Assembly: GCA_012295275.1 (NCBI GenBank)
Contig: CM022671.1
Span: forward strand, 33,323,927-33,387,926
DNA: 64,000 nucleotides
Reading direction: 5' to 3'
Origin: Chrysomallon squamiferum
Lineage: Eukaryota > Mollusca > Gastropoda > Neomphalida > Peltospiridae
Part shown: piece by piece, positions 32,755-64,000 of the stretch
How the letters are laid out: each line of letters starts with the position of its first letter
Position numbering within the stretch: the stretch's first letter is position 1
Translations under genes and position numbers: made by a program
The notes under the pieces: model-generated
Database searches by the model: none
Told to the model about the DNA's origin: nothing
Seen by the model: the letters and a program-made list of their open reading frames with translations, nothing else

Positions 32755-33025
32755 ATGGGTCCGACTAAAGAAGAAGATCTGGTAAGAAGGTTGACACCAA
32801 AATTTATGGAATTGATTGACCCATCTACATTTATGATTCATCTTGAAGTTCATGTTCTCACTTCCATTGATGAGGTAAGTGACAATTTAGATCCATCAAG
32901 TTGTGTCACTAATTAAGTGAGAATTTGTTTGTAATGTTTTTACTGGTAACACACTTTCTGTGGATACTGAAAACTAATCATCAACAAGTGATTCTTTGTA
33001 CCAAAAAGAGAAGAACAAAAAAATA

Positions 33026-33068
<43 letters not shown>

Positions 33069-33123
33069 GAATCAAAATTATCAATTTGAGCCAGTAACTG
33101 ATAATCATTATTCTTTTTATGTA

Positions 33124-33176
<53 letters not shown>

Positions 33177-33366
33177 ATAGATCTGTGGATAGATATATAC
33201 ATTTGTATAAAGCCTTTTTATGAAACATCAACATTTCTTTCTTACATCGTTAATTATATCAGTTACAGTATTGCATTATAATTATTCTGTTGTGAAATAG
33301 AAGAAAAATTTCTATTTTTTTTTATCATCGTACAATATTTACTGACGTTTAAATAATAATAATATT

Positions 33367-33407
<41 letters not shown>

Positions 33408-35178
33408 CAATATAGTTTAATATAAAGACATTCTACTTGTATTCTGGTTTATTACATTATAATTTTCTGAACACATTCACTCTGATTGGTAAATGTTATT
33501 TTCTCTCACTGACCAGTGATGGAGCTGGTTGGCAATGGTGATCATGTTTAGTGACTGTCACAGTCAAAATGTCCATTAGTAACATTATCTGCATCTCATT
33601 ATAACTTCAGACAGTTCAACCCCCCCACACACAAACCCTTTTATAGCATTCATTTTTTGTTTTTCTGGTAGAGTTTGATAGAGGCTGAAGAAAAGTGTAA
33701 AGGAAGACAATATGCAGCGAAAAAATTGTTGGATATTCTTTCTAGAAAAGAAAACTGGTTTGAGAAAATAATAGAAACTCTGAGAATTGAAGAGGTGAAG
33801 TTGAGCCATGTTGCAGATAAATTTCTACAAATTAAAAGTAAGTATTTTTTAAAAATTATTACTGAAACAAAAGGTTTCATGCTAAAATACCTCACATATA
33901 TCATTACCAGAGAGACAACTGTAACAAATATTGAATCACATTCATATAGTACTTCCCAGTATATATGTATATATATATTATAAAAGGTAACCGTAACAGA
34001 TTACTGACAACTGTAATAAATTATATTATTTAACTGGTTTATATAATTTGATTTAAAAAAACCCACAAACCACAAATTTAGTTGAACACTCAGTGTATGG
34101 TTTTATTTACTTATATTCTTTTTCTAGTCTATTTTGTATGATTATAATTATAAAATGATAATTTCTGTTAGCTTTTGAAGAAACCAATGTTCTCTTTGTT
34201 ACTTGGAGCTATTAAATGTTCAGATATTGAGAAAGTCATTCATAAGTTTCTGTTTGTTTTCAGAAGAGGTAGATGCTGACTGGATTAAATTAGAACAAAA
34301 GTCCAGAGGTAAGCAGTTTTCTACACATCATGAGTCTAGATTGTTATCATTATTTAATTGCAGTCTTAAAAGCAGAAAACTTACTTGAGTTGTAAGTGGT
34401 TGTAGGATCAACTCTTCTCATTTCTTCAATTTGTCTTGGTCATAAGACCAAGAGCTTTACTAAAGGCCACTTTTTTGTGTTTCCCTCTCAGTGTGCAGTG
34501 AAAAATAACTCTTGCACTTTCATAAATGATCACTTAAGTTTCCTATTATAACAGATATAGTAAAAACATTTGTTTTCTTATATTGTTTTTACTTTCAAAA
34601 GATGTAATTCTATTAAAGAAAATATCATCTGATCTGAATATGTAGCTTAAACACATGGAGTATTATCAATATAACACCTAATAATTATTATATCCAAGTG
34701 GTACAAATTACTGCTTCTGTAACATATTAATTTTGTTCTTATTTTTTACTGCAGGAGCTGAGTCACATCAGTCAGTTCTGTGTGAAAATAAAACAGCTCT
34801 GAGCACTTTTATTTTTGGTAATTGTTTGCCAAAACCTAAAGGTAATGTTTTATACAAAATCAGCATAATGTGTTACTATGGTTACCATTCTAATTATTCA
34901 TTATAAATAAAATTAGTACAGAATAAAATGGTTTTTTATTATTTTCTTTGCATTTTATTAGTGTTGTAAAAATTCATGTTCATTTTTAAAATAGATTATT
35001 TTGTTTTATGTCATTCTGTTTAGGTACACTCTTATTTTATTATTATGAAACATGAGTAAACACACACACACACACACATACACTCATTTGTTGATATAAT
35101 GATTTTCTACCTGTAAAACCAAAGATAATTTTCCAGATAAGATGAGTAATAAATATATATTTACATATACAAAAACAG

Positions 35179-35235
<57 letters not shown>

Positions 35236-37135
35236 GTTATATGAAAACATTCAGACATTTAGGTATGAAACACATATTCATATTGGTATAAAACACATAT
35301 ACCTAATGAAGAAATACACCTACTGATATGAAACAAAGAGAAACACTTACTGGTATAACACACATAGACTTACAAGCACACATACCTTTACAATACAGAC
35401 ACAGAGATGCTATGATAAATTAGCAATACTTATGTATGTACATACTAACTGACGTGACAATTATATTTTTAGATCACTATAAAACAGATGGGAAAAGACA
35501 TGAACAGAACGAAAATAAAAATCCCACTGTTTGTGATTCTCCCAGGAACGATTTTGGGAATGACAAATTTGTAAGACCATGTTTTGTTTATTTGGGTGTG
35601 CCTGTGTGTGGGTATGTTGTAACTCATATGAAACTTGTTTATTGTTCATCATGGAGTTGTAAGTAGGTTTGAGGAAGCTGCTTGAAACTCATATAGTCCA
35701 TCAAACTTCACGCCACCCACTTAAAATGTCTCCAAAAGTAACAGTGTTGGACACAAGTTTGTCGTGTATTGACTTTAACCCTTCAGAGCATGCATCTGTG
35801 TGGTTTGCTGTGTGCAGTGTTACGTATCCACTAATGTGCCTTGTTGTGTGCAGTGTTAAGTATCCACTAATGTGCCTTGTTGTGTGCAGTGTTTATCCAC
35901 TAATGTGCCTTGTTGTGTGCAGTGTTAAGTATCCACTAATGTGCCTTGTTGTGTGCAGTGTTAAGTATCCACTAATGTGCCTTGTTGTGTGCAGTGTTAA
36001 GTATCCACTAATGTGCCTTGTTGTGTGCAGTGTTAAGTATCCACTAATGTGCATTGTTGTGTGCAGTGTTAAGTATTCACTAATGTGCCTTGTTGTGTTC
36101 AGGGTTAAACTGTCAAAAGTCACTTATTTACTTACTAGTCCCTAGCAATTTGGTAACACAGACTTCACAATTCAGATTACCTTTTTTGTGATAAAAAGAA
36201 GTATACCACTTCCACAACAAAATACTATTTTTTTAATTTACAATACACCCAATCACATAAATGTGAGATTACTATACATTTCAATTTTAAAAATATTTTC
36301 AATTACCTGAGTTGGTAAATAATTTTCTTTTCTTTTTCTTTCTTTCTTTATTTTTTTGTTGCTTTTTAATTTGTTATTACAGTTAGGCAATCTTAATTTT
36401 GAAAATTGTTTTTCATTTTCTTTCATTGTAGAATGATTTAGAAAGAAAAATTATAAGATTTTTGAGAACTAAGACAGAGCCACAACTAACACTGACAATT
36501 GCGAAAGCTTGTGGTTGTGAAACACGGAAGGATGTTAATCCATCACTGTATGGCCTTGCCAAAAAAAACATTATTAAACAATGTGATACCCGTTCGCCTA
36601 CCTGGCAGGTGAGTTAATGAGATTTTTAAAACTAAATTTGTTAATTGAAAGAGTTATAAAATGTTAAAAATTATAATATTTAATCATTTAGTTTAAGTAA
36701 GTCACTTCTTGTTGAATAATATTTATTTCAGTGTTGTTAAAAATAAAAAAAAGTGTTTATTTTTGTTTATTTGATGAAAATGATGACTACATAAAGATTA
36801 GTCACATAATTACATGAATAAATTTGTGTGGTTGTATGACTAAATTCTGTACTTCTAACTTTCCTCTATCACTTCATATCAACCTTTAATAATAAAAAAG
36901 TATTTTTGTTAACAATTTCTGGAGTATGCATAGAGGCTGAAACTTTTCTTTTGTTTTGTGATAACATTTCATACACAGAAGTGCAAATAATTCAAGTAAT
37001 GTAAGGTTTTATGTTAATAATTTAAATAATATCTGCAAACAATAAATCTGAAAATAATTTTCTCTTCACAAATTTCATTTGATGTTATCATTTAACTTTA
37101 AAAATATTTTGTTTGGTTTTCAGATGATGTCATAA
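32755..37135 (+). CDS. Gene A: CARD plus Z-alpha domain protein (234 aa, seven coding exons)
   Basis: Exons: 32,755-32,874; 33,672-33,837; 34,264-34,308; 34,755-34,841; 35,473-35,570; 36,432-36,608; 37,124-37,135. All introns are GT-AG and every phase agrees (705 bases). Residues 1-95, exons 1-2, form a CARD-like helical bundle ending in WFEKIIETLR, the pattern of RIG-I, MDA5 and MAVS CARDs. Residues 96-172 are a polar linker. Residues 173-231 are a Z-alpha winged helix: LTIAKACG (helix 2), TRKDVNPSLYGL (recognition helix with Asn208 and Tyr212) and RSPTW (wing, Pro228 and Trp230). In ADAR1 the matching Asn, Tyr, Pro and Trp contact Z-DNA. The last exon adds only Met-Met-Ser. An acceptor-like AG (32,732-32,733) before the ATG suggests an upstream non-coding exon. 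AATAAA lies at 37,204. The function, Z-nucleic-acid sensing, is inferred. Confidence 0.8.
33030..33407. repeat. (GT)n, (AT)n and (TAA)n microsatellites in intron 1 of gene A
   Basis: (GT)n at 33,030-33,065, (AT)n at 33,128-33,174 and (TAA)n at about 33,354-33,407. The same order, with shorter runs, occurs in intron 1 of gene B (about 40,660-41,002), so the repeats predate the A/B duplication. Confidence 0.9.
35181..35233. repeat. (CA)n microsatellite in intron 4 of gene A
   Basis: About 26 CA units, with a shorter run at 35,059-35,078. It is opposite in sense to the (GT)n run in intron 1 of the same gene. Related runs lie in gene D at 56,186-56,203 and 56,308-56,343. Confidence 0.95.
35805..36105. 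repeat. 36-bp minisatellite before the Z-alpha exon of gene A
   Basis: About eight copies of a unit reading TGTGCCTTGTTGTGTGCAG and continuing GTTAAGTATCCACTAA. The unit length is a multiple of three, so long repetitive open frames appear on both strands; they start and stop with the array and are not genes. One unit is a few bases shorter. A related array of different unit length sits at the same place in genes B and D. Confidence 0.9.
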
Positions 37136-40037: not shown

Positions 40038-40087
<50 letters not shown>

Positions 40088-40372: not shown

Positions 40373-40959
40373 ATGAATCCAACTAAAGAACAAGATCTGG
40401 TACGAAAGATGACACCACAGTTTATGGACTTGATTGATCCATCTTTGTGTATGATTTACTTTGATGTTCATATTCTCCTTCCCTCTGAAACGGTTAGTAA
40501 TAATTTAGATAAATCCCGTCTGGTTATTAACTAAGTTAAAATTTGTTTGTAATGTTTTTACTGGTAACACACTTTCTGTGGATACTGAAAACTAATCATG
40601 AACAAATGATTCTTTGTACCAAAAAGAGAAGAACAAAAAAAATATTCTGTGTGTTGACATGTGTGCATGTGTGTGTGTGTGAATGATGAATCAAAATTAT
40701 CAATTTGAGCCAGTAACTGATAATCATTATTCTTTTTAAGTAAAAATCATATATATATATATATATATATATGGATAGATCTGTGGATAGATATATACAT
40801 TTGTATAAAGCCTTTTTATGAAACATCAACATTCTTTCTTACATCATTAATTATATCAGTTACAGTATTGCATTATAATTATTCTGCTGTGAAATAGAAG
40901 AAAAATTACATTTTAACACTTTTATTATTTTATCATTGTACAACATTTACTGAAGTTTA

Positions 40960-41001
<42 letters not shown>

Positions 41002-44000
41002 CAATATAGTTTAAATAAAGACATTCTACTTGTATTCTGGTTTATTAAATTATAATTTTCTGAACACTTTCAGTCTGATTAGTAAATGTTATTTTCTCTC
41101 ACTGACCAGTGATAGAGCTGGTTGGCAATGGTGATCATGTTTAGTGACTGTCACAGTCAAAATGTCCATTAGTAACATTATCTGCATCTCATTATAACTT
41201 CAGACAGTTCAACCCCCCACAAAAAAACCTTTTATAGCATTAATTTTTTGATTTTCTTGTAGTCTTTGATAAACGCTAAACAAGAGCAGAAAGGAAGACA
41301 TCTTGCAGCAAAAGAATTGTTGGATATTCTTTCTAGAAAAGAAAACTGGTTTGAGAAAATTATAGAAACTTTGAGAATCGAAGATTTGAAGTTGAGCCAT
41401 GTTGCAGATATATTTCTGCAAATTAAAAGTAAGTATTTTTTTAAAATTATTACTGAAACAAAAGGTTTCATGCTAAAATACCTCACATATATCATTACCA
41501 GAGAGACAACTGTAACAAATATTGAATCACATTCATATAGTACTTTCCATTATTTATTTTTTTATAAAACATATTATAAAAGGGGATTGTATATATTGTT
41601 TGGTTTAAAAAAAGCACAGACCATAAATTTAGTTGAAAACTCAACTGGAGTTATTAAATATTAAGATGTTGAGTACATCATTGATCAATTATCTGTTTAT
41701 TTTCAAAGGAGATAGATGCTGGCTGGATTAAATTAGAACGAAAGGACAGAGGAAAATCCCCACACAATATAGACACACACAAACACACAGATATGAAAAC
41801 ATGCAGACATACTGGTATGAAACATATATATATAAAACATTTTCACTTCTTTCTTAGAAAATTCCTTTTCATTATCCACCTTATGTCTGTGTGTGTGTGT
41901 GTGTGTGTTTATAAATCTGTGTAATTTGAAATTCAGGTATTCTAACCTTTCTTATATTTGTTTTTGGTCATCTTTCCAGGAGAAGTTGATGATCACTGGA
42001 ACAGTCTGCCGCCAGAAAAGCCTCATTCTGTTTCAGACATAAATCAGACTACAGTTAAAGAATTTAAATTTGGCAAGATGAAAAGTAAGTTCTATTTGAA
42101 AAAACATAAAAAGAACAGAATAATGAATTTAATTTTAATTCAACTCTTAAAACTGACCTAAATTAATCTCTTCATAAATAATGGTAGACATACTGGTAGA
42201 GTATTTGCCTAATCACCATTGTCAATGATCCTCACTACATCAACTGGATTATTACAGTCAGTATTTATACTAGTGTATGTGTAGATGTATTATGTACCTA
42301 GCTATCTCTATATAAATATAAAACAGTTAGTGAAAACTAATTAATTAATTTAAATTCAGACTGAATTAATTGATATAATGTGTAATCCAAACTACATTGT
42401 AATAGTTCTGAGAAATTTCAGTGCCTTTGAGGTTCTTCATGAAAAAAAGTTTGTTAAAGTTTTGTTCTCTCAAACTTTTTTCATTTGCATTTTATTTTTT
42501 GCTTTTTAAAATATTTCTGGTTCTCCTTCCCACCTTTGATTTCTGTATTTAAAAATGTATATATATATATGTGTGTGTGTGTGTGTTTTAGAAGATTATG
42601 CCACAGATGTTGGTCGTCCAGGAATGCCTGGTGCCAGAAGAGCTGATAACAAGTCAAATAAGGTAAAAATAAATGTTTCATTATTATCCCAATCTTTGTG
42701 ACTGATGTATAAAATCTGAACTGTAAGTAAATATTAAAAATGGATCATACAGTATTCTGTATTTTTACAGTTCTTCTGTAAAAATATCAGTTTGAAAGTA
42801 TGTTTTTCCCTGGGCAAGTTTTGATGGTTGGATTTATCAAAGAATTAAGCTTATCACAACATTCACAATCATAAGTCTTTGGCACTGAATAGCAGCTTTA
42901 ACTTTCCTTGTATGACCAGCAATCACTAAATAAAAGTTTGTCTCATAATTGTCATATATATTCTCACCATATATACACACATGTAATAAAAGTATATTAT
43001 TCTACTGAATATGCATTTTCAATTATTTATTGTTTAACATTAGGAAAATTAGTAATTTACAGCTGGATAATGTGCCTGTCTCTTCTGCAGCTTATGACTT
43101 CATTTTTCTCATTTTATTTCCATTTGTAAAAATACTGAGGACATTTAGTACACTGGTATGAAAATATTGAGGAAAATGAGTTTTAAAAAATGTATTTTTT
43201 TCCAAGTCTGAAAATGTCACTATAATTCTATAACTTAACATGGGCAAACACATGTTCATGGGTAGGAATAAATATTCCTTACCTGGAGATAATATTCTTT
43301 TACAAAAGAAATAATTATATGGACTTAGCTAACAAGGCTGTTATTCTGAGAGTTGACTGCAAATGAATCAAAATAAAATTTTAAGATTAAAAAAAAAATA
43401 TGCTTTATCAGTGCTGTTTCACATTCATCAACTAAATATTTAAAAATATGTACACCTTAACATCTTTTCATTCTTTGGTTTGTTAATAAGTTATAATTCA
43501 AAGACTTACAAAGGGAACAGAAATATAATGGAACAAATTGTAGATAACTAATATTTCATATTTGTAAGTGTTCTCTTAACAGATATTCAATATAAAACAA
43601 ATTTACAAATGACTCCAATAGTTTTTCCATGTTCCATTTGCTTAAGACTTGGTTAATCCCGGATTCAGCAACAGAAATGCTTGGCATTACAAGGACAAAA
43701 AACACTACAGCAAAAAATGTATAATTAATAACATTATTAAATTACTTCAAAATTTCAAAACTTCTTAGTGATTTCTGTTTAATGAACTACTTTGTAGACT
43801 CCTGGAATAAAAGAACAGTGCTTTAAGTCTTTCAAACTGAATCAATTATTATATTTTGCAGGCTCAGTCATGTTCACAGGTTGCAGAAGAACTTGAAGGA
43901 GCACGAGCTAATGAGACAGCCAGTAAGTTATCTAGTTAACTAAAAATGTAATTAATATACGTTTTTTTATTCTTCTTGATAATGTTCAGTAGCAGTATAT

Positions 44001-47000
44001 ATTCCACTTTATCTAACACACTGTGTATACACTTTTTCATTAAGTACTATGTGTTATTTTATGTTTAAAGGAAAAGAAACAGGACACTTCGTTTGTTAGA
44101 GTTCACATATTATGATGGCTAAATGTCAGAGGTCGGTTCATTTATGAAATTCAGAATCTAGAAATGTTTTATTTCAAAATACAAAACAAAAAAACCCCAG
44201 TAAAATACCCAAAATAGTAAACATTTTTGATGGTGAATAAATCGTGAAATCAAAGCCATAAATAAGTGGGTATATTTCAATAATTTATATGATGATGGAA
44301 TAACATTATAAAATACTGAAGCTATTTTTAATATAAGTCTTAGAAATAAATTGTCTTTGTTTATTTTCAAACCGTTTTGAAGGAAATGGAGCAGAATGAA
44401 AAAAGGAACACAGAATAGCTCATACACTGAAGATAAGATTCAGTAAATCTGTAAAATAAATCAAAATAAATTTGAATATAATAAGATCAGTTTCTTATAT
44501 CTCTATATAAAATTACATTATTAGAGAAGGTGAAATGTAATTTTCATAATGATATTTTATATACTTTCACATCAGTCAGGTTGTGTGAAAATAAAACAGA
44601 ATATCAAAATAATACATTCTAAAAATGAACATGAATTTTTATAACACTAACAAAATGCAAAGAAAATAATAAAAAAGCATTTTATTTTGTACTAGTTTTA
44701 TTCATAATGAATAATTAGAATGGTAACCATACTAACACATTATGCTGAATGCATAAACCATTATCTTTAGGTTTTGGCAAATGATTACCAGAAATAAAAG
44801 TGTTCTGACCTGTTTCATTTTCACACACACACACACACACACACATACACACACAAAGATATACATATATGAAAACTGACGACATTTAGGTATGAAACAC
44901 ACATATACAGATTGGTACAAAAAACATATATGTAATGTAAGAACACACATACATACTGGTATGAAACACAGAGAAACACTTACTGGTATAACACACATAG
45001 ACTTACAAGAACACATACCTTTACAATACATACACAGAGATGCTATGATAAATTAGCAATACTTATTAGCAGTACTTACAATCTGATGTGACATTTATAT
45101 TTTTTTGATCTGTATAAAACAGACAGTGGGAAAAACACTAAAAGGGTAACTCATGAAGAGAATGAAAATAATAAGCCCACTTCTCATGTTTGTGGATCTT
45201 CGTACAACCATTGTGAGCAGCAGAAATTAGTAAGACCATGTTTTGATTATTTTGGTATACGTGATAACTGTGTGTGTGTGTGTGTCTGTGTGTGTATTTG
45301 TGTGTGAGTGTGCATGTGTTATAACTCATATGAATCTTGTTTATATTATAATATATTATCTACATTATTTTCATTGTATTACTATATACATTTATTTTGT
45401 TATTACAGTGAAGCATATAAAGGTACCCATATACAGACACACATATACATATATCTATAAACATTTTGTAAGATATTCAACTCGCAGAAATGATTATATA
45501 ACAAAATTAATATCTTATTAGAATAAAAGGCTGATTCCAGAGTTTGCATTTATTAGTTAACTGTTCTATTAAAAATAATGTTATTGAAATAGTTAAGCAC
45601 TGAAAACATTTGATCAGTTTTGTGAAATCTGCACACTGTGATGAAATAGATGTTCTGCATTGATTATGTGGTAATTAGATGGTCAGGCATTTTTATTTTA
45701 TTTGAAAGATGAAATTAATGTTTATAAAAAAAACCTGGTTTCTTTTGTTAGGTTGCTGTCTTTTTCATCAAAATAATAATCCATTTCATACTTTAAACCT
45801 AAAAAAGGTTTAATTTGGGAATTTTTTAAACCAGACTGAAGTCATTTGTCTTTTTCAAGTCATTATATCATGCAACTAGAAGTGTTAATGTGTGGTGTGT
45901 CACTGAAACAAACTTATGCATGCTACAACATGCCCTTTATAATTGTGTTATGACAAATAAATGGTCTAATAAAATTCTTTATTTTTTCGAAGATGTTGGT
46001 GCCTAAGAACTTAACTTAAAGATCTTGTAAGAGAAGAATCATTTAATGTTCTCTAAAGTTTCCTAAACATGTCAGACACAAAAGTGTTTTACTTTGACTT
46101 TGCCCCTTTAGAGAAATACATTCTTCTGACTGAAAAAAACCCATCCTTTGTACAGAAGTAAGCATCCACCTTGTTCCTTGTGTGTGTGGAGCTAAGTGTG
46201 CACCTTGTGTGTGTGGAGCTAAGTGTGCACCTTGTGTGTGTGGAGCTAAGTGTGCACCTTGTGTGTGTGGAGCTAAGTGTGCACCTTGTGTGTGTGGAGC
46301 TAAGTGTGCACCTTGTGTGTGCAAAATTAAATACCCACCAGTGTCTCTTGTGTGCAGAGTTAAACTGTCAAGTGTCACTTATTTACTTACTAGTCCACAC
46401 CAATTTGGTAACACAGACTTCACAATTCAGATTACCTTTTTTGTCATAAACATAAATATACCATTTTGCCAACAAAATATATTTTTTACTGTAAACAAGA
46501 TATCAACAAGATGTAACTATACATTACAATTTTAAACCTTTCATTTATATGAACTGGTAAAAATATATATGTATGTATTTCTTAAAATTATTTATTATTA
46601 TTGTTTTTTTTTTTTTTTAAATTTGTTATTACACTTAGGCAAAGGGCTACTTTGAATCTTAGTTTTGAAAATTGTTATTGTTTTCTTTGTAGAATGATTT
46701 AGAAGAAAAAATAATAGCATTTTTGAAAACTAAGACAGAGCCACAACTAACACTGACAATTGCGAAAGCTTGTGGTTGTGAAACACGGAAGTATGTTAAT
46801 CCATCACTGTACGGCCTTGCCGAAAAAAACATTATTAAACAATGTAATACCCGTTCGCCTACCTGGCAGGTGAGTTAATGAGATTTTTAAAACTAAATTT
46901 GTCAATTGAAAGAGTTATAAAATGTTAAAAATTATAATATTTAATCATTTAGTTTGAGTAAGTAGATCAGTCATTTCTTTTTAAATGATTTCTTCCAGTG

Positions 47001-48998: not shown

Positions 48999-49026
48999 AT
49001 ATTATTATTATTATTATTATTATTAT

Positions 49027-49058
<32 letters not shown>

Positions 49059-49439: not shown

Positions 49440-50037
49440 ATGGATAAAGAGCATTTGAGAGAAAATGACTTAGTAAGAAGATTATCGTCTGAGTTTAAGT
49501 CAAAAATAGTGCCATCTCAAATAATACCTTATTTAGATGTTCATCGTATTTCCAGGGAAGATGAAGTTAGTTGGTGTTTTGTATTAAATATTAAAATAAT
49601 AGAACTTTCATTCTTTAAACAACAATGACAGACAGTTTAACAAAGTCACCAATAACAAAAATAAATAATATATTTAAAAAAAAGAAGAAAAATGGAGAAA
49701 GAAATTTTAATTAATATTATTATTATTATAATTATTATTATTATTATTTTGAATGGATTTAATTTTATAGTTTCACTTTAGGTTGGAAAATAAGAGATAT
49801 AGGGTGTGTCTAGCAGAGATTTTAAATATTTGTCAGTAAAAGTTTCAAGTCAAGGAGGTTTTGAATAGTTTCATGAGAACCATATAATTTCATAACCAAA
49901 AACATATTGATAATTGATTTGTAACCAAGTAATAATTAGTTAGATATTAAAGTTTTTAAATGTAAAATAATTATATTATTACAATCTTAAAAATGTTCAT
50001 TAAGCAAAATACATAATCAGTTTATGTTTTAAGTTAT

Positions 50038-50068
<31 letters not shown>

Positions 50069-50415
50069 TATATTATTAGTATTTTTTATTTTTTGCATAG
50101 GATTTAATATTAGCAAAAGAAACAACTGAAGGAGCAATGGCAGCAGCTTATTTATTGCTGAATCGTCTTTCACGTAACTATGACTGGTTTAACAGCTTAC
50201 TGAGAACACTCAGACATGAAGAAGTCCGGTTGCATCACGTAGCATGTACTTTTGAAGAAATTAAAAGTATTTTTCAATTTCAGTTTTAACATGTCTTCAT
50301 GTGAACTAACAAAAGAACTTTACAAATATAAATACTACATGGGACTGTGTTTATGTTTATTGATATATTTTTAAATTAATAGTTCTTGGTTGCAAAACTT
50401 GATTTATTTATTTAT

Positions 50416-50508
<93 letters not shown>

Positions 50509-52434
50509 GCAGCAACAGATTTGTAATATATTTTTTTTTCTCTAGAAATGAAAAAGATCATAGCTTGGTGTTTGTTAAAAAAGTGATTGGCCATCACCTG
50601 CAGTAAAATTAGGAGGATTGATCCTGGAGCATGTCATTGCTACCCTGTGATTAACTAAGTCATGGAAACGTTTCAATAAATTAATTTGACTGTTTCACAC
50701 AAACCGACTACAAAATTTACAAGAAAGTTGTTCATATGTGATGCATTGTTGAATTTATAAAGGATTTGTAGATATGTGTGGCCTTATTGTCCTTATCTGT
50801 TCATTGTTAGAAAATTCCTTTTTGTTATCCAGCTTATGAAGTGTGTGTGTGTGTGTTTGTTTATAAATCTCTATAATTTGAAATTCATTTATTCTGAATT
50901 TTATTTATTTTTAATGTTTGTTGTCATTTTTTGCAGGACAAGTGGATAATCACTGGAACAGTCTACCGCAAAAAAATCCTCATTCTGTTTCAGACATAAA
51001 TCGGACTACAGTTAACGAATTTAAATTTGGCAAGCCAAAAAGTAAGTTCTATTTACAAAGAAAACAAAGAAAAGAATAATGAATTTAATTTTAATTGAAT
51101 TCCTGAAACTGAGCTATGATATCCTGGGTGTGACAGATTTGGATAAGATAAATGAATGGCTTAAATTAATCTCTTTATAATATGTAATAGATATTGATAC
51201 AGTATTTGCCTGATCAGCATTGTCAGTATTCCTCACCACATCTACTGGATTATTACAGTCAGTATTTATACCAGTATAGGTATGTGTGTATTATTTACAT
51301 ATGTATGTATATATTTATCAGAAAACAATTGATGAAAACTAATGGATTAATTTAAATTCAGACTGAATTAATTGATATAATATGTAATACAAACTACATT
51401 TTAATAGTCCTGAGAAATTTTAGTGCCTTTCAGGTTCTTCATGAAAAATAAAAATAAAAAGTTAAAGTTTTGTTCTCTTTCTCATACGTTTTTCATTCTC
51501 CCTCCCACCTTTGTATTATAGCTGTATTTAAAAATGTGTGTATGCATTTTAGGTGATTATGTCACAGATGTAGGTCATTCAGGAAGGCCATATTTAAGAA
51601 ACATTGAAACTGCAGAAAAAGGGGAAGCTTCCATGTATGTTGATGCCAGAAGTGCTGATAATAAGCCAGATAAGGTAAAAATAAATGTTTCATTATTATC
51701 CCAATCTTTGTGACTGATGCATAAAATCTGAACTGTAAGTAAATATTAAAAATGGAAACATACAGTATTCAGCATTTTCTAATTTCTTGTGCAAATTGAT
51801 TTAGAGAAGTGGGTTGTGTGTTTTATAACATGCTAACACCATTACAGGACACCTGGCAAAGCAGCACACTAAGGGCATTTCACACAGAACCACTTAAAAA
51901 ACCTATTAACAGCAATCCACAGCATACATGGAGAGCATGGGACTTATGGTGCCTATTATCTTAAAACAGAATCAGAATATTTTCTCTTTATTATGAATAG
52001 TATGTCTATAAGTGTGTGCATGAAAATTATCTCTTCCTGCTAAAAAGTAAGAATGGTGTGCAGAACTGAGGTGTCAGATTTTTTCTTTCCCTTGTTACAT
52101 AAAATCATTTCACATAGAATTAATATTATGATGCTGTCCATTATTCATGATATTATTATAAAAATATTCAAAAGCACATTTAAAGAAAGTGAATTCAATC
52201 CTTTTGTTTACTTTTCAGAGTGAATTAAAAGATAAAATACTAGAATTTTTAAAAACTAATCCAGGACCACAGGAAACAATAAAAATTGCAAAAGCCTGTG
52301 GTTATAAATCACGTTCAGATGTGAATCCTGTAATTTATAGCCTAGAGAAAGAGGGTCTTCTCCAGAAATGTACTGACCAACCTCCCTCCTGGCAGTACAT
52401 CAATATGAGTATTGTAGACAGGGTAGAAAGATAA
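49440..52434 (+). CDS. Gene C: CARD plus canonical Z-alpha protein (244 aa, five coding exons)
   Basis: Exons: 49,440-49,565; 50,101-50,266; 50,937-51,041; 51,553-51,674; 52,219-52,434. Phases agree (735 bases). Residues 1-97 form a CARD-like domain (IIPYLDVHRIS, then YDWFNSLLRTLR). The linker includes DNHWNSLPQKN and DYVTDVGHSGRPYLRN. Residues 174-232 are the clearest Z-alpha domain in the window: KIAKACGYKSRSDVN, Asn209, Tyr213, LEKEGLLQK and the classical wing PPSW (Pro228, Pro229, Trp231). Unlike A, B and D there is no donor after TGGCAG; the frame reads on for 12 residues to TAA. An acceptor-like TTTCCAG nine bases before the ATG suggests a 5' non-coding exon. Exon 1 uses GTTAGT as donor. 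Likely a cytosolic or nuclear Z-nucleic-acid binder with CARD signalling; inferred. Confidence 0.82.
50417..50505. repeat. (GT)n(GA)n microsatellite in intron 2 of gene C
   Basis: A short GT run followed by about 37 GA units. The matching run in gene E is at 62,381-62,470. Confidence 0.95.
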
Positions 52435-53276
52435 GAAATAAAATAAAATTACACATCCACTTTTTTTCTTTTTTTTTTTTGTGTGGGGTGAATGGGCAGA
52501 GAAATAAGCATCAAATTAAAAAGTTGTTTAATCTTTCTGATCTTTGTTTAAACTGGTAAATGATCAAGAAATAGAAACCAATTTCTATACTGTTAACGTC
52601 AAATGTAATAGATAATAAGAAATTTTAAAAAGCATTACATGAATCACCATTGTTTTTTAGTAATCACAAATGTAGCAGGAGGCATCTAAGAAGATCTCAG
52701 TTTCCAAAATATCATACTTGCAATACTGCTGTGAAAAAAATAATAATAACATTTGTTAAGAATTATAATATTTTTAAAATTTGACAAAAACTTTTGTTTT
52801 CTAATATTTTCAGACAAATGAATGTACAGAACACAAGGAAGATGATGGTTATGCAACATTAAATTATAGGTTAATTTTAACTTCACGAATATCCAGTGTG
52901 AGATTGAAATTGTTCTGTTTTAAGTTATTTGCATAAATCAGTAATATTTCTATAAAGATGAAATGCATGCATCAGTTGGAATTCCATACTTGATCTTGAA
53001 TTGAGCTATATTTCTAGGTGTTTAAATTAATATATTAAAAATCTTAGCATTTATTATAAAAAACAAAATAATAATAATAATTTGTAATTATTTAACTCTG
53101 AAAATATACTGAACTGCCTGTTATTTATTTTTATTATTATTATTTTTATTATTATTATTATTATTATTAGTTTCATACTCTACGTGAAAGGGTTTACTTT
53201 TGGAAACTGTTAGAAGTTATCATGACAACAGTTATTTTATTTATTTAATTATTTATATTTTAAACTAAATCAACAC
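52435..53276. other. Short spacer after gene C
   Basis: No exon seen. It carries AATAAA-type signals soon after the stop (AAATAAAATAAAA at 52,436-52,448), a T run, and a (TTA/TTAT)n stretch at about 53,131-53,169. Confidence 0.5.
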
Positions 53277-54788
53277 ATGGAGAAATTCTTTATCAATATA
53301 AAATCCTGCTTGGTATTATTTTCCAGTATTCAAAAGTCCACTGACGAAAGTGATGTTTATGATCAGCTTGAGAATATTCATTTTGATGACAATCCGGAAT
53401 ACCATGACAGACAGCGTGACACTGCAGTAAGTTATAATAAAACAACTACTTCGAAAATCACACACACCAACATTTCTAGTACTGAATTAATAGTGAGATG
53501 AGTAGTGGGTTGTAGTAGAGTAAGTTACATTAGTACATGTCACACTACAGCACGGCAGTGTACATCACTACACTGCATCATATCATGTGTCAGTGTACAT
53601 CATTACATCATGTCAGTATGTCATATATCATGTTAGTTTACATCACTGCATCATTTCAGTATGTCATATATCATGTTAGTTTACATCACTGCATCATTTC
53701 AGTATGTCATGTATCATGTCAGTGTACATCACTATATATAGTTTATATTATTGCATCATGTCATTAGAGATCAAATTACAGTAAATGCTCAATTTAATGG
53801 ATTGATATTTTATTATAACATGAAATATTTAATGTACTCTCCAGTTTTAATATTAAATATTGAGTAACAGCAATTCCTTTGCTCTAATTAAGTCTGCTCG
53901 GGAATAAAAATGTATCTGAATTGTAATATATGGATGGAGATGTACCATTTGTTTTCTGGTAGCAGGTTGAAGAAGTCAAAGTCACTTTTTAAAAAAAAAA
54001 TAATTATACTAACCCCTCTTAAAAAACCCTAAAAATAATAATAAAAGATATAAATCTCTAAATGATGGCAGTCTCAGAAGTTGTTCTTCAGATGATGTAA
54101 AAGTTTCTGGTTCATCCATCTGCACAAATCATTGAGTATGAGACTTCCTTTGCACCTAAAACAGTCTGCTAAATCCAAATATTCATTAAATCAGATACAC
54201 TGTATGTCACGTTGTTATGTGAAGTTATGTCTGGTTCTCTCTCACTGTTAGTACTCACATTGCAGAAACATGAAGAGAAGGAATATACCAAAGCAGAAGT
54301 AACACAAGCCCTTCAACATCTGGCAGTACATCACTGTGAATATTGTAGACATGGTAGAAATTGTCTCATAATTATCATATATATTCTCACTATATACACA
54401 TAAATGTAATAAAAGTATATTATTCTACTGAATATGCTTTCTCATTTATTTATTCTTTAACATTACAGCTGGATAATGTGCCTCTCTCTTCTGCAGCTTA
54501 TGACTTCATTTTTCTCATTTTATTTCCATTTGTAAAAATACTGAGGACAGTTAGTACACTGGTATGAAAATATTGAGGAAAATTAGTTTTAAAAGACTTA
54601 CAAAGGGAACAGAAATATAGATATAACAGATATTCAACATGAAATATTTTTAACCAGTGGTTACATAACTCCACACATGTGGATATATACTACACAGAAA
54701 AGCCAAGGAAGCTTGCTGCTGTCACATAAGGAGCCATTTTCTAATCTCAACAAGAGATCCTTTTTAATCAGCCTCCGCAAGGCAGTGT

Positions 54789-54820
<32 letters not shown>

Positions 54821-56306
54821 GTAAAATACCACAAACATTGTCTGCATAACTTGTGGCACCCAGACATTTTTTCACTGGTAACCTCTTTCAGTGACAGTCT
54901 ACTGAAATTAGGAACACTATAACAGTAAGAGGGAAATAGTTTCATAAAAAACATATATAATAATAAACCTTTAAATGGAAAGGTGTAGCTGATGAAAGAA
55001 GAGTGTTGAGCTGGAAATTGGTGGGTTTTACAAATGACTCCAATGGTTTTTCCATGTTCCATTTGCTTAAAACTTGGTTAATCCCAGACTCAGCAACAGA
55101 CATGCTTGGCATTAGAAGGGAAAATGTTTTCACTACAGCAAAAAAATTTGTAATTAATAACATTATTAAATTACTTCATGCATTTGACAAGAAGACGAAG
55201 AAATTGCTGCAAAATTCCAAAACTTAAATCAACTTCTTAGTGATTTTTTTACTCACTGACATGTTTAATGAACTACTTTGTAGACTCCTGGAAAAAGAAC
55301 AGTGCTTTAAGTCTTTTAAACTGAATTAATTATTATATTTTGCAGGCTCAGTCATGTTCACAGGTTGTAGAAGAACTTGAAGGAGCACGAGCTAATGAGA
55401 CAGCCAGTAAGTTATATTGTTAACTAAAAATGTAATTAATATACGTTTTTTATTCTTCTTGAAATATTCAGTAACCGTATAATTCTACTTTCTCTAGCAC
55501 TCTGTATTGGCACTTAATGATAAACTGGAATGTGTTCTGTTATGCTTAAAGAACAAGAAACAGGAAAATTTGTTTCTTTCATGACTGAATATCAGATAAA
55601 AATTCATGTATAATATTCAGAATCTATAAATGTTTTATTACAGAAATCAAGCTATTTTTAATTTAAATCTTAGAAACAAATTGTGTTTATTTTCAGTTTT
55701 AAAGGAAGTGGAGCAGAATGAAAAAAAGAAGACAGAAACCTCATACACTGAAGGTAAGTGTCAGATTAAAACTGTAAAATAAACCAAAATAAATTTCAGT
55801 ATAATAAGATCAGCTTCTTATACCTTTATATAAAATGACATTATTAGAAAAGGCGAAATATAATTTTCATGATGATTTTTTATACACTTTCAATAAGTCA
55901 TGTCTGTTTGAAAATAAAACAGCTCAGTAAACTTTTATTTTTGGTAATCATTTGCCAAAACCTAAAGGTAATGTTTTATACACAATCAGCAAGATGTGAT
56001 ACTATGATTACCATTCTAATTATTCATTATAAATAAAATTAGTACAAAATAAAATGTTTTTTTATTATTTTCTTTGCATTTTATTAGTGTTATAAAAATT
56101 CATGTTCATTTTTAAAATAGATTATTTTGTTTTATGTCATTCTGTTTAGGTACACTCTTATTTTATTATTATGAAACATGAGTAAACACACACACACACA
56201 CAGATATACACTCATTTGTTGATATAATGATTTTCTACCTGTAAAACCAAAGATAATTTTCCAGATAAGATGAGTAATAAATATATATTTACATATACAT
56301 AAACAG

Positions 56307-56345
<39 letters not shown>

Positions 56346-57059
56346 GTTATATGAAAACATTCAGACATTTAGGTATGAAACACATATACCTAATGAAGAA
56401 TTAGTACAAAATAAAATGTTTTTTAAAAATTATTTTCTTTGCATTTTATTAGTGTTATAAAAATTCATGTTCATTTTTAAAATAGATTATTTTACTGTAT
56501 GTGACATTTCTTCATTCTGTTTAGGTACACTGTTATTTTAGTATTATCAAAACATGAATAAACACAGACACACACATTTGTAGCTATAATGAATTTCTTC
56601 TGATAAAACCAAAGATAATTTTCCAAATAGATGAGTAATACATATATATTTACATATACAAAAAGAGAAAGAAACCGTAGAGATTTAGGTATGAAATACA
56701 CATGTACATATTGGTATAAAAACCATATGTCTAATGCAAGAACACACATACACATACTGGTATGAAACACAGAGAAACACTTACTGGTATAACACACATA
56801 GACTTACAAGCACACATACCTTTACAATACAGACACAGAGATGCTATGATAAATTAGCAATACTTATTAGCAGTACTTACAATCTGATGTGACATTTATA
56901 TTTTTTTGATCTGTATAAAACAGACAGTGGGAAAAACACTAAAAGGGTAACTCATGAAGAGAATAAGCCCACTTCTCATGTTTGTGGATCTTCATATAAC
57001 CATTGTGAGCAGCAGAAATTAGTAAGACCATGTTTTTATTATTTTGGTGTAAATGATAA

Positions 57060-57094
<35 letters not shown>

Positions 57095-59281
57095 AACTCA
57101 TATGAATCTTGTTTATATTATAATATATTATCTACATTATTTTCATTATATTACTATATACATTTATTTTGTTATTACAATGAAGCATATAAAGGTACAC
57201 ATATACAGAAACACATATACATATATATATATAAACATTTTGTAAGATATTCAACTTGCAGAAATGATGATTATATAACAAATTTAATATCTTATTAGAA
57301 TAAAAGGCTGATTCCAGAGTTTGCATTTATTAGTTAACTGTTCTATTAAAAATAATGTTATTGAAATAGTTATTAGCAAATTATGTACAAATTTAAAGAT
57401 GGGATTTACCTAAAAATGGTCTTATTCTAGGCCAAAATTATGAAACATTATGTTGAATGATGAATAATATTTGTCTTTATAACAAAAATAAGAAATCGAA
57501 ATATTTATAGAGTATTTACAAGAAAGCACTGAAAACATTTGATCAGTTTTGTGAAATCTGCACACTGTGATGAAATAGATGCTTTGCATTGATTCTGTGG
57601 TAATTACATGGTCAGGCATTTTTATTTTATTTGAAAGATGAAATTAATGTTTATAAAAAAAATAAATAAAAAAAAATGGTTTCTTTTGTTAGGTTGCTGT
57701 CTTTTTCATCAAAATAATTATCCATTTCATACTTTAAACCTAAAAAAGGTTTAATTTGGGAATTTTTTAAACCAGACTGAAGTCATTTGTCTTTTTCAAG
57801 TCATTGTATCGTGCAACTAGAAGTGTTAATGTGTGGTGTGTCACTGAAACAAACTTATGCATCCTACAACATGCCCTTTAAAGGTGTATAATTGCGTTAT
57901 GACAAATAAATGGTCTAATAAAATTCTTTATTTTTTCGAAGATGTTGGTGCCTAAGAACTTAACTTAAAAATCTTGTAAGAGAAGAATCATTTAATGTTC
58001 TCTAAAGTTTCCTAAACATGTCAGACCCAAAAGTGTTTTACTTTGACTTTGCCCCTGTAGAGAAATACATTCTTCTGACTGAAAAAAAACAACACCATCC
58101 TTTGTACAGAAGTATGTATCCACCTTGTTCCTTGTGTGTATGGAGCTAAGTGTGAACCTTGTGTGTGTGGAGCTAAGTGTGCACCTTGTGTGTGTGGAGC
58201 TAAGTGTGAACCTTGTGTGTGTGGAGCTAGGTGTGAATCTTGTGTGTGTGGAGCTAAGTGTGCACCTTGTGTGTGTGGAGATAAGTGTGCACCTTGTGTG
58301 TGCAGAATTAAATACCCACCAGTGTCTCTTGTGTGCAGAGTTAAACTGTCAAGTGTCACTTATTTACTTACTAGTCCACACCAATTTGGTAACACAGACT
58401 TCACAATTCAGATTACCTTTTTTGTCATAAACATAAATATACCATTTTGCCAACAAAATATATTTTTTACTGTAAACAAGATATCAACAAGATGTAACTA
58501 TACATTACAATTTTAAACCTTTCATTTATATGAACTGGTAAAAATATATATGTATGTATTTCTTAAAATTATTTATTATTATTGTTTTTTTTTTTTTTTA
58601 AATTTGTTATTACACTTAGGCAAAGGGCTACTTTGAATCTTAGTTTTGAAAATTGTTATTGTTTTCTTTGTAGAATGATTTAGAAGAAAAAATAATAGCA
58701 TTTTTGAAAACTAAGACAGAGCCACAACTAACACTGACAATTGCGAAAGCTTGTGGTTGTGAAACACGGAAGTATGTTAATCCATCACTGTACGGCCTTG
58801 CGAAAAAAAACATTATTAAACAATGTAATACCCGTTCGCCTACCTGGCAGGTGAGTTAATGAGATTTTTAAAACTAAATTTGTCAATTGAAAGAGTTATA
58901 AAATGTTAAAAATTATAATATTTAATCATTTAGTTTGAGTAAGTAGATCAGTCATTTCTTTTTAAATGATTTCTTCCAGTGTTGTTAAATATGAATCACT
59001 TCTGTACTTCTAACATTCCTTTACAACTTCAGATCAACCTTTAATAATAATAAAGCATGGTGATAACAATTTCTAGAGTATGCAGACAGACTGAAATTTT
59101 CCTTTTGTTTTGTGGCATTTCATATATAGAAACGGAAATAATCCAAGGAAAGTAAGGTTAATGTGAAATAATATATCTTTATAAAATCTGTATAAAATAT
59201 ATCTGAAAACCTCTTTCTTTTTGCAAATTGCATTTGATGTAGTCTTTTAACTTTAAAAACTTTTGTTTTCAGATGATGTGA
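53277..59281 (+). CDS. Gene D: Z-alpha protein without a CARD (183 aa model, six coding exons)
   Basis: Exons: 53,277-53,426; 55,346-55,406; 55,697-55,753; 56,924-57,021; 58,674-58,850; 59,273-59,281; phases agree (552 bases). The last four linker and Z-alpha exons are well supported by paralogy with gene B. The first exon is less certain: its ATG frame gives an acidic STDESDVYDQLENIHFDD segment, but an acceptor-like TTTTCCAG at 53,319-53,326 suggests that the exon may really start at 53,327 and belong to a longer transcript. Residues 123-181 are Z-alpha, with Asn158, Tyr162, Pro178 and Trp180; this exon is almost identical to that of gene B. Without a CARD the product could be a competitor or regulator. 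Alternatively the D exons may be used by gene C, whose exon 4 ends in the matching phase. Confidence 0.5.
53555..53770. repeat. Minisatellite of about 43 bp in gene D intron 1
   Basis: Imperfect repeats reading CATCACTGCATCATTTCAG then TATGTCATATATCATGTTAG. A His/Ser/Ile-rich frame across it is repeat-derived. Confidence 0.75.
54257..54365 (+). pseudogene. Fragment resembling the 3' end of the gene C Z-alpha exon
   Basis: CTGGCAGTACATCA...GAATATTGTAGACATGGTAGAAA matches the end of the 52,219-52,434 exon with small changes, while the 5' part of that exon is not recognisable. An upstream CATTGCAG could serve as acceptor for a short KHEEKEYTKAEVTQALQHL frame. Most likely the tail of a lost Z-alpha exon. 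The sequence after it matches an intron of gene B at about 42,945-43,150. Confidence 0.45.
55890..55967 (+). pseudogene. Dead copy of gene A-type exon 4 in gene D
   Basis: It matches 34,764-34,841 (GAAAATAAAACAGCTC, TTTGCCAAAACCTAAAG) and keeps the donor GGTAATG. The acceptor is lost and the frame has an in-frame TAA at 55,927-55,929, so the exon must be skipped. Confidence 0.7.
56027..56565. repeat. Local tandem duplication of intron sequence in gene D
   Basis: The stretch from ATTAGTACAAAATAAAATG at about 56,038 recurs at about 56,401, including the TTTAGGTACACT block (56,146 and 56,521). The (CA)n runs at 56,186-56,203 and 56,308-56,343 are expanded in the first unit only. Confidence 0.8.
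58126..58310. repeat. 27-bp minisatellite before the Z-alpha exon of gene D
   Basis: About seven copies of the gene B unit with more variation (GTGAACC, GTGAATC, GAGATAAG variants). Not coding. Confidence 0.9.
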
Positions 59282-60869: not shown

Positions 60870-60899
60870 GGTAGGTGCGCAGCAACCTGTGGAAATTAC
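60870..60899 (+). promoter_or_regulatory. Conserved promoter-like element upstream of gene E
   Basis: Same GGTAGGTGCGCAGCAACC and GTGGAAATTAC block as before genes B and C. Its presence suggests that gene E may still be transcribed despite its frameshifts. Confidence 0.4.
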
Positions 60900-60984
60900 A
60901 CAGAAAGAAACACTACTATGGAAAGCACTAGCAGTAAAATCTTCGTCGGGTGTTTATTAGTCAGTTATATTTGAAATGTTTGTA

Positions 60985-61019
<35 letters not shown>

Positions 61020-61205
61020 GTAGTAGTAGTAGTAGTCATTATTATAAATTCAGTTACGATCATCAGAAATTATATTTCAGTTTATTTTAATTCAAAATTA
61101 GAAACTTTGTTATACAAATATTTACTTCCTGGTCAGCAAATTTCTACTTTCATTTTCTCGCTGAATAATTTGACTAATATAGAAATATTATTATATATCG
61201 TTGAG

Positions 61206-61247
<42 letters not shown>

Positions 61248-61413
61248 TTTAATATTTTTTAAAAAAAAAGAGTTAATTGTCAAATTCGAAACAGTTTAAT
61301 ATATTTGAAATTAGTGTAATATCTTTCGTTACTATTAGATATATATAAAGAGAGAAAAAATTATTTTTGTATTAGATTAAAATAATATGATTTTATGTTT
61401 CCAGTTGTTTATC

Positions 61414-61650
61414 ATGGATAATGGGATTTGAGAGAAAATGACTTAGTAAGAAAATTATCGTCTGAGTTTAAGTCAAAAATAGTGCCATCTCAAATAATAC
61501 ATCATTTTGATGTTCATCGTATTTCCAGGGAAGAGGAAGTTAGTTGGTGTTTTGATTTTGTATTAAATATTAAAATATTAGATCTTTCATTCTTTGAACA
61601 ACAATGACAGACAGTTTAACAAAGTCACCAATAAGAAAAAATTAAATAAT

Positions 61651-61688
<38 letters not shown>

Positions 61689-62393
61689 GACAAAGAAATT
61701 TTTAATTTTTATTATTATTATTTTTGAATGGATTTAATTTTATAGTTTCACTTTAGGTTGGAAAATAAAAGATATAGGGTGTGTCTAGCAGAGATTTTAA
61801 ATAATTGTCAGTAAAAGTTTCAAGTCAAGGAGGTTTTGAATAGTTTCATGAGAACCATATAATTTCATAACCAAAAACATATTGATAATTGATTTGTAAC
61901 CAAGTAATAATTAGTTAGATATTAAAGTTTTAAAATGTAAAATAATTATATTATTACAATCTTAAAAATGTTCATTAAGCAAAATACATAATCAGTTTAT
62001 GTTTTTTAAATATATCTATATATATATATATATTATTTTTTTTTTTTTTTTGCATAGGATTTAATATTAGCAAAAGAAACAAATAAAGGACCAATGGCAG
62101 CAGCTTATTTATTGCTGAAACATCTTTCACAAAAATATGACTGGTTTAACAACTTACTGAGAACACTCAGACATGACGACGTCCGGTTGCATCACGTAGC
62201 ACATACATTTGAAGAAATTAAAAGTATTGTTCAATTTCAGTTTTAACATGTCTTCATGTGAACTAACAAAAGAACTTTACAAATATAAATACTGCATGGG
62301 ACTGTGTTTATGTTTATTGATATATTTTAAATTAATAGTTCTTGGTTGCAAAACTTGATTTATTTATTTATATTATATGTATGTGTGTGTGTG

Positions 62394-62473
<80 letters not shown>

Positions 62474-63615
62474 GCAGCAACAAATTTGTAAATTTTTTTT
62501 TTTCTCTAGAAAAAAAAAGATCATAGCTTGGTGTTTGTTAAAAAAAAGTGATTGGCCATCACCTGCAGTAAAATTAGGAGGATTGATCCTGGAGCATGTC
62601 ATTGCTACCCTGTGATTAACTAAGTCATGGAAACGTTTTAATAAATTAATTTGACTGTTTCACACAAACTGACTACAAAATTTACAAGAAAGTTGTTCAT
62701 ATGTGATGCATTGTTGAATTTATAAAGGATTTGTAGATATGTGTGGCCTTATTGTCCTTATCTGTTCATTGTTAGAAAATTCCTTTTTGTTATCCAGCTT
62801 ATGAAGTGTGTGTGTGTGTGTGTTTGTTTATAAATCTCTATAATTTGAAATTCATTTATTCTGAATTTTATTTATTTTTAATGTTTGTTGTCATTTTTTG
62901 CAGGACAAGTGGATAATCACTGGAACAGTCTGCCGCCAGAAAATCCTCATTCTGTTTCAGACATAAATCAGACTACAGTTAACGAATTTAAATTTGGCAA
63001 GCCAAAAAGTAAGTTCTATTTACAAAGAAAACAAAGAAAAGAATAATGAATTTAATTTTAATTGAATTCCTGAAACTGAGCTATGATATCCTGGGTGTGA
63101 CAGATTTGGATAAGATAAATGAATGGCTTAAATTAATCTCTTTATAATATCCAATACATATTGATACAGTATTTGCCTGATCAGCATTGTCAGTATTCCT
63201 CACCACATCTCCTGGATTATTACAGTCAGTATTTATACCAGTATAGGTATGTGTGTATTATTTACATATGTATGTTTATATTTATTAGAAAACAATTGAT
63301 GAAAACTAATTGATTAATTTAAATTCAGACTGAATTAATTGATATGGTATTTGTAATACTGAGAAAAGCCTTTCAGGTTCTTCATGAAAATAAAAATAAA
63401 AAGTTAAAGTTTTGTTCTCTTTCTCATACGTTTTTCATTCTCCCTCCCACATTTGTATTATGTCTGTATTTAAAAATGTGTGTATGTGTTTTAGGTGATT
63501 ATGTCACAGATGTAGGTCATTCAGGAAGGCCATATTTAAGAAAAATTGAAACTGCACAAAAGGGGAAGCTTCCATGTATGTTGATGCCAAAAGTGCTGAT
63601 AACAAGCCAGATAAG
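61414..63615 (+). pseudogene. Gene E: frameshifted CARD gene, copy of gene C (partial, runs off the window)
   Basis: Exons corresponding to gene C: 61,414-61,538; 62,058-62,223; 62,904-63,008; 63,495-63,615. Splice sites are kept, including GTTAGT after exon 1. Exon 1 is one base shorter than in C (125 against 126), so the ATG frame ends at a TGA after five codons. Exon 4 is also one base shorter (121 against 122), in the A-run before GGGGAAG, which shifts the frame again. Exon 2 is intact and encodes a CARD half with YDWFNNLLRTLRHDD; its differences from C include several amino acid changes. The Z-alpha exon would lie about 160-200 bp beyond the window end. This is either a young pseudogene or an assembly with homopolymer-type errors. 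Confidence 0.7.
62381..62470. repeat. (GT)n(GA)n microsatellite in intron 2 of gene E
   Basis: Counterpart of 50,417-50,505, of slightly different length and with a TAT interruption. Confidence 0.95.
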
Positions 63616-64000
63616 GTAAAAATAAATGTTTCATTATTATCCCAATCTTTGTGATTGATGCATAAAATCTGAACTGTAAGTAAATATTAAAAATGGAAAC
63701 ATACAGTATTCAGCATTTTCTGATTTCTTGTGCAAATTGATTTAGAGAAGTGGGTTGTTTGTTTTATAACATGCTAACACCATTACAGGACACCTGCAAA
63801 GCAACACACTAAGGACATTTCACACAGAACCAGTTAAAAACCTATTAACAGCAATCCACAGCATACATGGAGAGCATGGGACTTATGGTGCCTATTACCT
63901 TAAAACAGAATCAGAATATTTTCTCTTTATTATGAATAGTATGTCTATAAGTGTGTGCATGAAAATTATCTCTTCCTGCTAAAAAGTAAGAATGGTGTGC

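Follow-up and report, generated by a model that had tools for sequence, protein, structure and literature searches.

The question raised by this locus is whether neighbouring genes in the gastropod Chrysomallon squamiferum encode proteins in which a CARD is joined to a Z-alpha domain and, if so, what such proteins might do. The stretch analysed as a whole, here called the window, comprises 64,000 nucleotides of contig C7 (36.9 Mb), from a genome of 404.6 Mb in 22 contigs; its base composition is 24-33% G+C and it is eukaryotic in character, with spliced genes and tandem duplications. It contains a tandem family of predicted architecture CARD-Z-alpha (genes A and B) and CARD-Z-alpha-Z-alpha (gene C), whose products are, on balance, probably cytosolic sensors of Z-form RNA or DNA that signal by CARD assembly. 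As predicted from domains, exon phases and tandem duplication, the architecture is well supported; we infer expression, Z-form binding, CARD assembly, a partner and an antiviral role.

The domain assignments carry this reading. In all three spliced models the N-terminal part matches Pfam CARD_2 (PF16739), with scores of 53.1, 41.7 and 51.8 bits for A, B and C respectively against a curated cut-off of 28.2, and the C-terminal part matches Pfam z-alpha (PF02295) at 27.6, 22.0 and 54.2 bits against a cut-off of 21, gene B only just. CARD and Z-alpha profile matches had been named beforehand, in an earlier note on this DNA, as a point on which the proposal could fall, and both were borne out in each gene. 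Sequence searches of solved structures placed RIG-I first for the CARD (best E 3.2e-07 for A and 8.9e-09 for C), followed more weakly by MDA5 (A and C) and MAVS (C). For the first Z-alpha domain of gene C, the nearest solved structures are those of ADAR1 and ZBP1; for that of gene A, they are fish PKZ and ZBP1.

Gene models joining a CARD to Z-alpha domains

Searching with exon pieces (tblastn) located four CARD exon pairs, belonging to A, B, C and a further copy E, and four Z-alpha exons, starting at 36432, 46693, 52219 and 58674, all on the plus strand of the window. The earlier note had spoken of five adjacent same-strand copies: the common strand stands, the number does not. What it had described as three fully phased models leading from CARD to Z-alpha is reproduced in A, B and C, whose introns are GT/AG and whose phases agree, so that the joining of the two domains in three genes holds while the copy number on which it was partly founded falls away. 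With 70 kb of downstream flank added (3,944 bases of the total masked), the CARD pairs rise to five and the Z-alpha exons to six, including a broken one. Profiles built from the family found no more members of CARD or Z-alpha type in this longer stretch at E <0.1; beyond that threshold the strongest CARD match, at E 0.16, is the CARD of a SAMD9-like gene, G, discussed below.

Gene A (32755-37135) encodes 233 residues in seven coding exons, gene B (40373-47300) 270 residues in eight and gene C (49440-59281) 426 residues in twelve, the last with two z-alpha stretches; all lie on the plus strand, and splice sites and phases fit throughout. The exons are as follows, in window positions (extended coordinates, where so marked, run on into the flank). 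Every exon of A, B and C is taken from the phased model, any further evidence being given in brackets.

32755-32874, plus: A exon 1, first part of CARD, with ATG (Pfam, family profile)
33672-33837, plus: A exon 2, second part of CARD (Pfam, family profile)
34267-34308, plus: A exon 3, linker; its relative in B, 41709-41756, has by eye no fitting acceptor
34755-34841, plus: A exon 4, linker; decayed relatives near 55892 and 72883
35473-35570, plus: A exon 5, linker
36432-36608, plus: A exon 6, Z-alpha (Pfam, genome search)
37124-37135, plus: A last coding exon (MMS, stop)
40373-40492, plus: B exon 1, first part of CARD (Pfam, family profile)
41263-41428, plus: B exon 2, second part of CARD (Pfam, family profile)
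41980-42084, plus: B exon 3, linker
42595-42662, plus: B exon 4, linker
43862-43922, plus: B exon 5, linker, homologue of C exon 8
45123-45229, plus: B exon 6, linker
46693-46869, plus: B exon 7, Z-alpha (Pfam, genome search)
47292-47300, plus: B last coding exon (MM, stop)
49440-49565, plus: C exon 1, first part of CARD (Pfam)
50101-50266, plus: C exon 2, second part of CARD (Pfam)
50937-51041, plus: C exon 3, linker
51553-51674, plus: C exon 4, linker
52219-52422, plus: C exon 5, Z-alpha 1 (Pfam)
52814-52869, plus: C exon 6, YATL motif; same protein sequence in E and F
53327-53426, plus: C exon 7, YDQL and NPEY motifs; DNA identical to F over the compared codons
55346-55406, plus: C exon 8, shrunken relative of the gene G CARD exon (DNA alignment)
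55697-55753, plus: C exon 9, linker, relative of the exon following the CARD of G
56924-57021, plus: C exon 10, linker
58674-58850, plus: C exon 11, Z-alpha 2 (Pfam, genome search)
59273-59281, plus: C last coding exon (MM, stop)
61414-64000, plus: copy E, running past the window end; CARD exons 61414-61538 and 62058-62223, linker from 62904, exon 4 at 63495-63615

A few splice sites are weak or in tandem: exon 3 of A and exon 4 of B each begin at the second AG of an AG-AAG pair, and the donor of C exon 5 is GTAGAA. Unspliced read-through of that exon meets an in-frame stop at 52432-52434, and a shorter form of gene C ending after Z-alpha 1 is possible.

No separate CARD goes with the Z-alpha exon at 58674. 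In gene B the CARD is followed by linker exons, an exon containing AQSCSQ, another containing DSGK and then the Z-alpha exon; the AQSCSQ and DSGK exons also precede 58674, with one extra linker exon between them, and are in phase with the upstream exons of C. Because those at 55346 and 56924 match linkers of B and fit the phase of C, 58674 was assigned to gene C, and the simplest reading of the sequence is that C is a CARD-Z-alpha-Z-alpha gene with 58674 as its second Z-alpha. A division into five separate genes was dropped in favour of A, B, C (with two Z-alphas) and E, since C exons 8, 10 and 11 match exons of B in phase.

The YATL, YDQL and NPEY motifs of C exons 6 and 7 (52814-53426) resemble, by eye, immunoreceptor tyrosine-based activation motifs; they are identical in C and F, an identity of little weight in copies so young. 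An open, exon-like stretch at 54248-54361 ends in a manner resembling the end of Z-alpha 1 and has a relative near 79.2 kb, in the flank of F.

Copy E carries frameshifts in exon 1 (with an in-frame TGA), in exon 4 and in the Z-alpha exon that follows shortly beyond the window end, and may be a pseudogene or reflect assembly errors. In copy F (66509-74012, extended), the ten modelled exons are open and in phase. Z-alpha 2 was not found in F, an expanded short tandem repeat occupying its expected place. A short tandem repeat is present at 35.8-36.1 kb in gene A, in the intron before the Z-alpha exon, and is greatly expanded in F (around 75.2-78.9 kb, extended). Phases would permit F and the SAMD9-like gene beyond it to form one transcript, an arrangement that was set aside.

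It might be argued that the models are artefacts, the CARD and Z-alpha exons lying on separate transcripts or in decaying duplicates. The models are built on DNA alone, one copy is frameshifted and, in another, the repeat has expanded and Z-alpha 2 was not found. Nevertheless, the order CARD, linkers, Z-alpha and its consistent phases recur in each of A, B and C and, as far as the tenth exon, in F; the Z-alpha exons begin in phase 0, behind linker exons that are themselves in phase; and the CARD has been under long-term constraint, as described below. We regard an artefact as very unlikely.

Constraint and the proposed function

Between distant copies, nonsynonymous differences per site in the CARD are fewer than synonymous ones (Fisher p 0.004 for A-C, 0.015 for A-F and <0.001 for B-F). 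The young C-F pair has a CARD with 0.116 nonsynonymous differences per site (24.5/210) against 0.042 synonymous (2.5/60; Fisher p 0.08), and a Z-alpha 1 that is identical in protein sequence, with no nonsynonymous difference over 138 sites. These values are suggestive of a conserved ligand domain coupled to a labile signalling domain. Diversifying selection on the CARD is not claimed, given the C-F p value of 0.08 and synonymous sites of A-B exons that differ more than the flanking introns; for these reasons uneven recombination is as likely.

In the mechanism envisaged, the C-terminal Z-alpha domain or domains would bind Z-form nucleic acid arising from infection or from endogenous repeats, and several copies of the protein would line up along one ligand. 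RIG-I-type CARDs brought together in this way could then nucleate the assembly of a CARD-bearing partner, candidates for which are a MAVS-like adaptor of RIG-I-like receptors, a caspase or a neighbouring CARD-SAMD9-like protein. CARD output would thereby replace the RHIM or kinase output of ZBP1 and PKZ. The main lines of this interpretation, with a MAVS-like or caspase partner, had already been offered in the earlier note, and the SAMD9-like candidate is added here; the core of the proposal, CARD and Z-alpha profile matches within one phased gene model, is retained without its basis in five copies.

All four Z-alpha exons of the window keep Asn, Tyr, the second Pro and Trp without variation, as positions named in the earlier note; among them are those which we take to correspond to Asn173, Tyr177 and the wing Trp195 of ADAR1. 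The first wing proline is replaced by Ser in the Z-alphas of A, B and C2 (Z-alpha 2 of gene C). Furthermore, the cluster Z-alphas have Pro at what is presumably the equivalent of ADAR1 R174. On the residue roles that we assume, these two features would suit a Z-alpha that has kept its fold and lost Z-form binding, like Z-beta of ADAR1, serving instead in protein contacts or dimerisation. Against this, Asn, Tyr, the second Pro and Trp are retained, Z-alpha 1 keeps both wing prolines, and the ADAR1 Z-alpha of the same genome also has Asn-Pro at the corresponding place. Such a loss of binding is, we consider, quite unlikely.

The Pro and Ser substitutions nonetheless belong to a set of observations that tell against the proposed sensor function. 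The structure prediction proposed for gene C brought no support, its Z-alpha 1 yielding a poor model (predicted local distance difference test score, pLDDT, of 59.8, from an alignment of four sequences), and the gene A Z-alpha model, at pLDDT 83.5, lacks formed wing strands and gave no PDB match in a fold search. Constraint is not uniformly visible: the deep A-C1 comparison of Z-alpha domains points in the same direction as the CARD but is not significant (p 0.089), and the A-B pair is without it, at 0.172 nonsynonymous and 0.184 synonymous differences per site in the CARD and 0.059 and 0.048 in the Z-alpha. Copy E is broken, and the presence of CARD and Z-alpha on one mature mRNA is a prediction from the DNA models. 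No MAVS was identified in the genome, where no search aimed at MAVS was made. Finally, protein-database relatives were not significant among 238 and 3,995 candidates, in a database that may hold few animal proteins.

Other searches were also negative: 99 pattern matches in viral contigs included no confirmed relative, and the one model of three compared with NCBIfam, that of gene A, had no match.

Genomic context and the SAMD9-like neighbours

A genome search with the gene A Z-alpha exon returned seven places, all matching, of which six are in the cluster (one broken) and one is on contig C9; genome-search counts for large families are lower bounds. The match on contig C9 falls within an open frame of 557 residues that has a z-alpha match; of the frames a few kb downstream, two were tested and both match A_deamin, for which reason this gene is taken to be ADAR1. 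The RIG-I_C-RD scan gave three matches at two loci on contig C8, each with a CARD_2 match on the same strand about 9 or 11 kb away. On this evidence two RIG-I-like receptors are very probably encoded in the genome, and a CARD pathway probably exists in C. squamiferum.

These genes on other contigs bear on a different role for the CARD-Z-alpha proteins, as regulators that, bound to Z-form RNA, would cap the CARDs of RIG-I-like receptors or compete either with these CARDs or with ADAR1, damping the response to endogenous double-stranded RNA. The proteins are short, have no catalytic domain among their Pfam matches and possess a single RIG-I-type CARD, and both RIG-I-like receptor domains and ADAR1 are encoded in the same genome. 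Tandem expansion and the proximity of SAMD9-like genes, on the other hand, fit a frontline sensor at least equally well, and we judge a regulatory role unlikely, if credible.

The CARD_2 scan of the genome produced 14 matches, five of them in the cluster. When five of the nine others and the CARD of gene G were compared with the cluster, the one on contig C9 was nearest, at 30-34% identity. By eye its exon (L041:632-826) belongs to a two-exon split seemingly like that of the cluster, the joined sequence scoring 46.0 bits, and a leucine-rich-repeat-rich open frame (L041:6084-8489) lies downstream. Three CARD_2 exons on one strand of contig C2 span about 42 kb (6202575-6244825), with further CARD-like frames nearby. 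On contig C8, CARDs at 8807097 and 8811605 are on opposite strands and 91% identical over 91 residues; one is on the RIG-I_C-RD strand, the other is followed by a disordered, coiled-coil-like frame. The CARD gene at 8811605 was considered as MAVS and is not claimed as such: it may continue in that disordered, coiled-coil-like manner, with no obvious membrane helix by eye.

Two SAMD9-like genes, G and H, lie downstream of F, about 17 and 29 kb beyond it. Gene H (102695-107695, extended) had no Pfam match at E 0.1, but residues 482-853 match solved SAMD9 (E 1e-13). Gene G has a CARD exon (90789-91107, extended) whose open frame matches PF00619 at 39.4 bits and which continues, spliced in phase, through 91518-91574 to a third exon starting at 92102. 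There the reading frame differs from that of the long SAMD9-like frame at 92322-95927, and a second break precedes 95972-96796; the three pieces each match H, at 49%, 49% and 58% identity. Judged by its frames, gene G has two points at which it is either broken or misassembled, and the linkage of a CARD to a working SAMD9 core in one protein is a candidate only. Passages of PMC5445408 describe a GG-T P-loop variant with an upstream His in the SAMD9 family and state that its invertebrate members may carry a CARD; the HAPGGGGTT of both G and H is this variant.

Both flanks of C exon 8 align at 80-81% with the flanks of the G CARD exon core, about 266 bases of G being absent from C, and hence C exon 8 is considered a shrunken relative of that exon. 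By these alignments the CARD-Z-alpha and SAMD9-like genes are tied by descent as well as by position. One may envisage a linked sensor-effector system in which CARD-Z-alpha proteins detect Z-RNA or Z-DNA and activate the CARD-SAMD9-like neighbour through CARD-CARD contact, so stopping translation, as the analogy with SAMD9 would suggest; such a system would be an invertebrate ZBP1 counterpart having arisen by exon exchange with a SAMD9-like gene. The interruption of the SAMD9-like gene with the CARD exon lowers our estimate, and we hold this scenario to be rather unlikely.

Further afield, an open frame for a rhodopsin-type receptor (27782-29092, minus strand, 436 residues; 7tm_1, 40.5 bits) lies upstream of the cluster, and a long, by eye aminotransferase-like open frame (115448-116941, extended, minus strand) lies downstream of the SAMD9-like genes. 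The receptor frame, the SAMD9-like and RIG-I-like genes and an ADAR1 with Z-alpha together suggest an invertebrate, perhaps a lophotrochozoan.

Novelty and comparison with known systems

The statement in the earlier note that no described family joins CARD and Z-alpha agrees with the literature: no CARD-Z-alpha protein is among the matches listed (titles and abstract starts) for Z-alpha and SAMD9. Since subscription journals and protein-database annotations were outside this scope, novelty of the pairing is rated as probable only. In a paper from 2024 devoted to the Z-alpha fold, the section on linked domains names deaminase, double-stranded RNA-binding, kinase and RHIM partners only (PMC11293857), and parts of another count eight putative Z-alpha proteins in eukaryotes, with architectures in a supplementary figure (PMC11298590). 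Domain grafting onto lophotrochozoan RIG-I-like receptors is described in sections of PMC8998645; the term 'z-alpha' is absent from the main text of that paper and from that of the SAMD9-family paper, PMC5445408.

If the proposed sensor function is correct, a CARD-linked Z-alpha family outside vertebrates would mean that Z-nucleic-acid sensing has been wired independently to a RIG-I/MAVS-type module. The cluster would offer invertebrate immunology a concrete candidate sensor, possibly a new type of virus sensor, and would make testable the idea of Z-RNA as a danger signal in animals without ZBP1 and PKZ. The C/F pair, with identical Z-alpha 1 and diverged CARDs, is a ready comparison.

ZBP1 (DAI) similarly combines Z-alpha domains with a homotypic signalling module, and has two of them, as does gene C. 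Its Z-alphas are N-terminal, whereas the cluster proteins have an N-terminal CARD and C-terminal Z-alpha. It also differs in signalling through a RHIM, according to passages of PMC11293857; none was seen among the Pfam matches of the A, B and C models (E up to 1), the set to which the absences below also refer, and no search aimed at RHIM was made. Fish PKZ has, among solved structures, the Z-alpha closest to that of gene A, but its output is a kinase domain, which is absent here. With ADAR1 the Z-alpha domain is shared, without a deaminase or double-stranded RNA-binding domain. Parts of PMC5445408 describe SAMD9-family members with a CARD, and the likeness lies in the downstream SAMD9-like gene with its CARD exon and in C exon 8, although the modelled cluster genes lack the SAMD9 core. 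To RIG-I-like receptors and MAVS the resemblance is in the CARD, of the CARD_2 family and nearest to the CARDs of RIG-I; unlike those receptors, the cluster proteins have no helicase or RIG-I_C-RD, and the predicted sensor part is Z-alpha.

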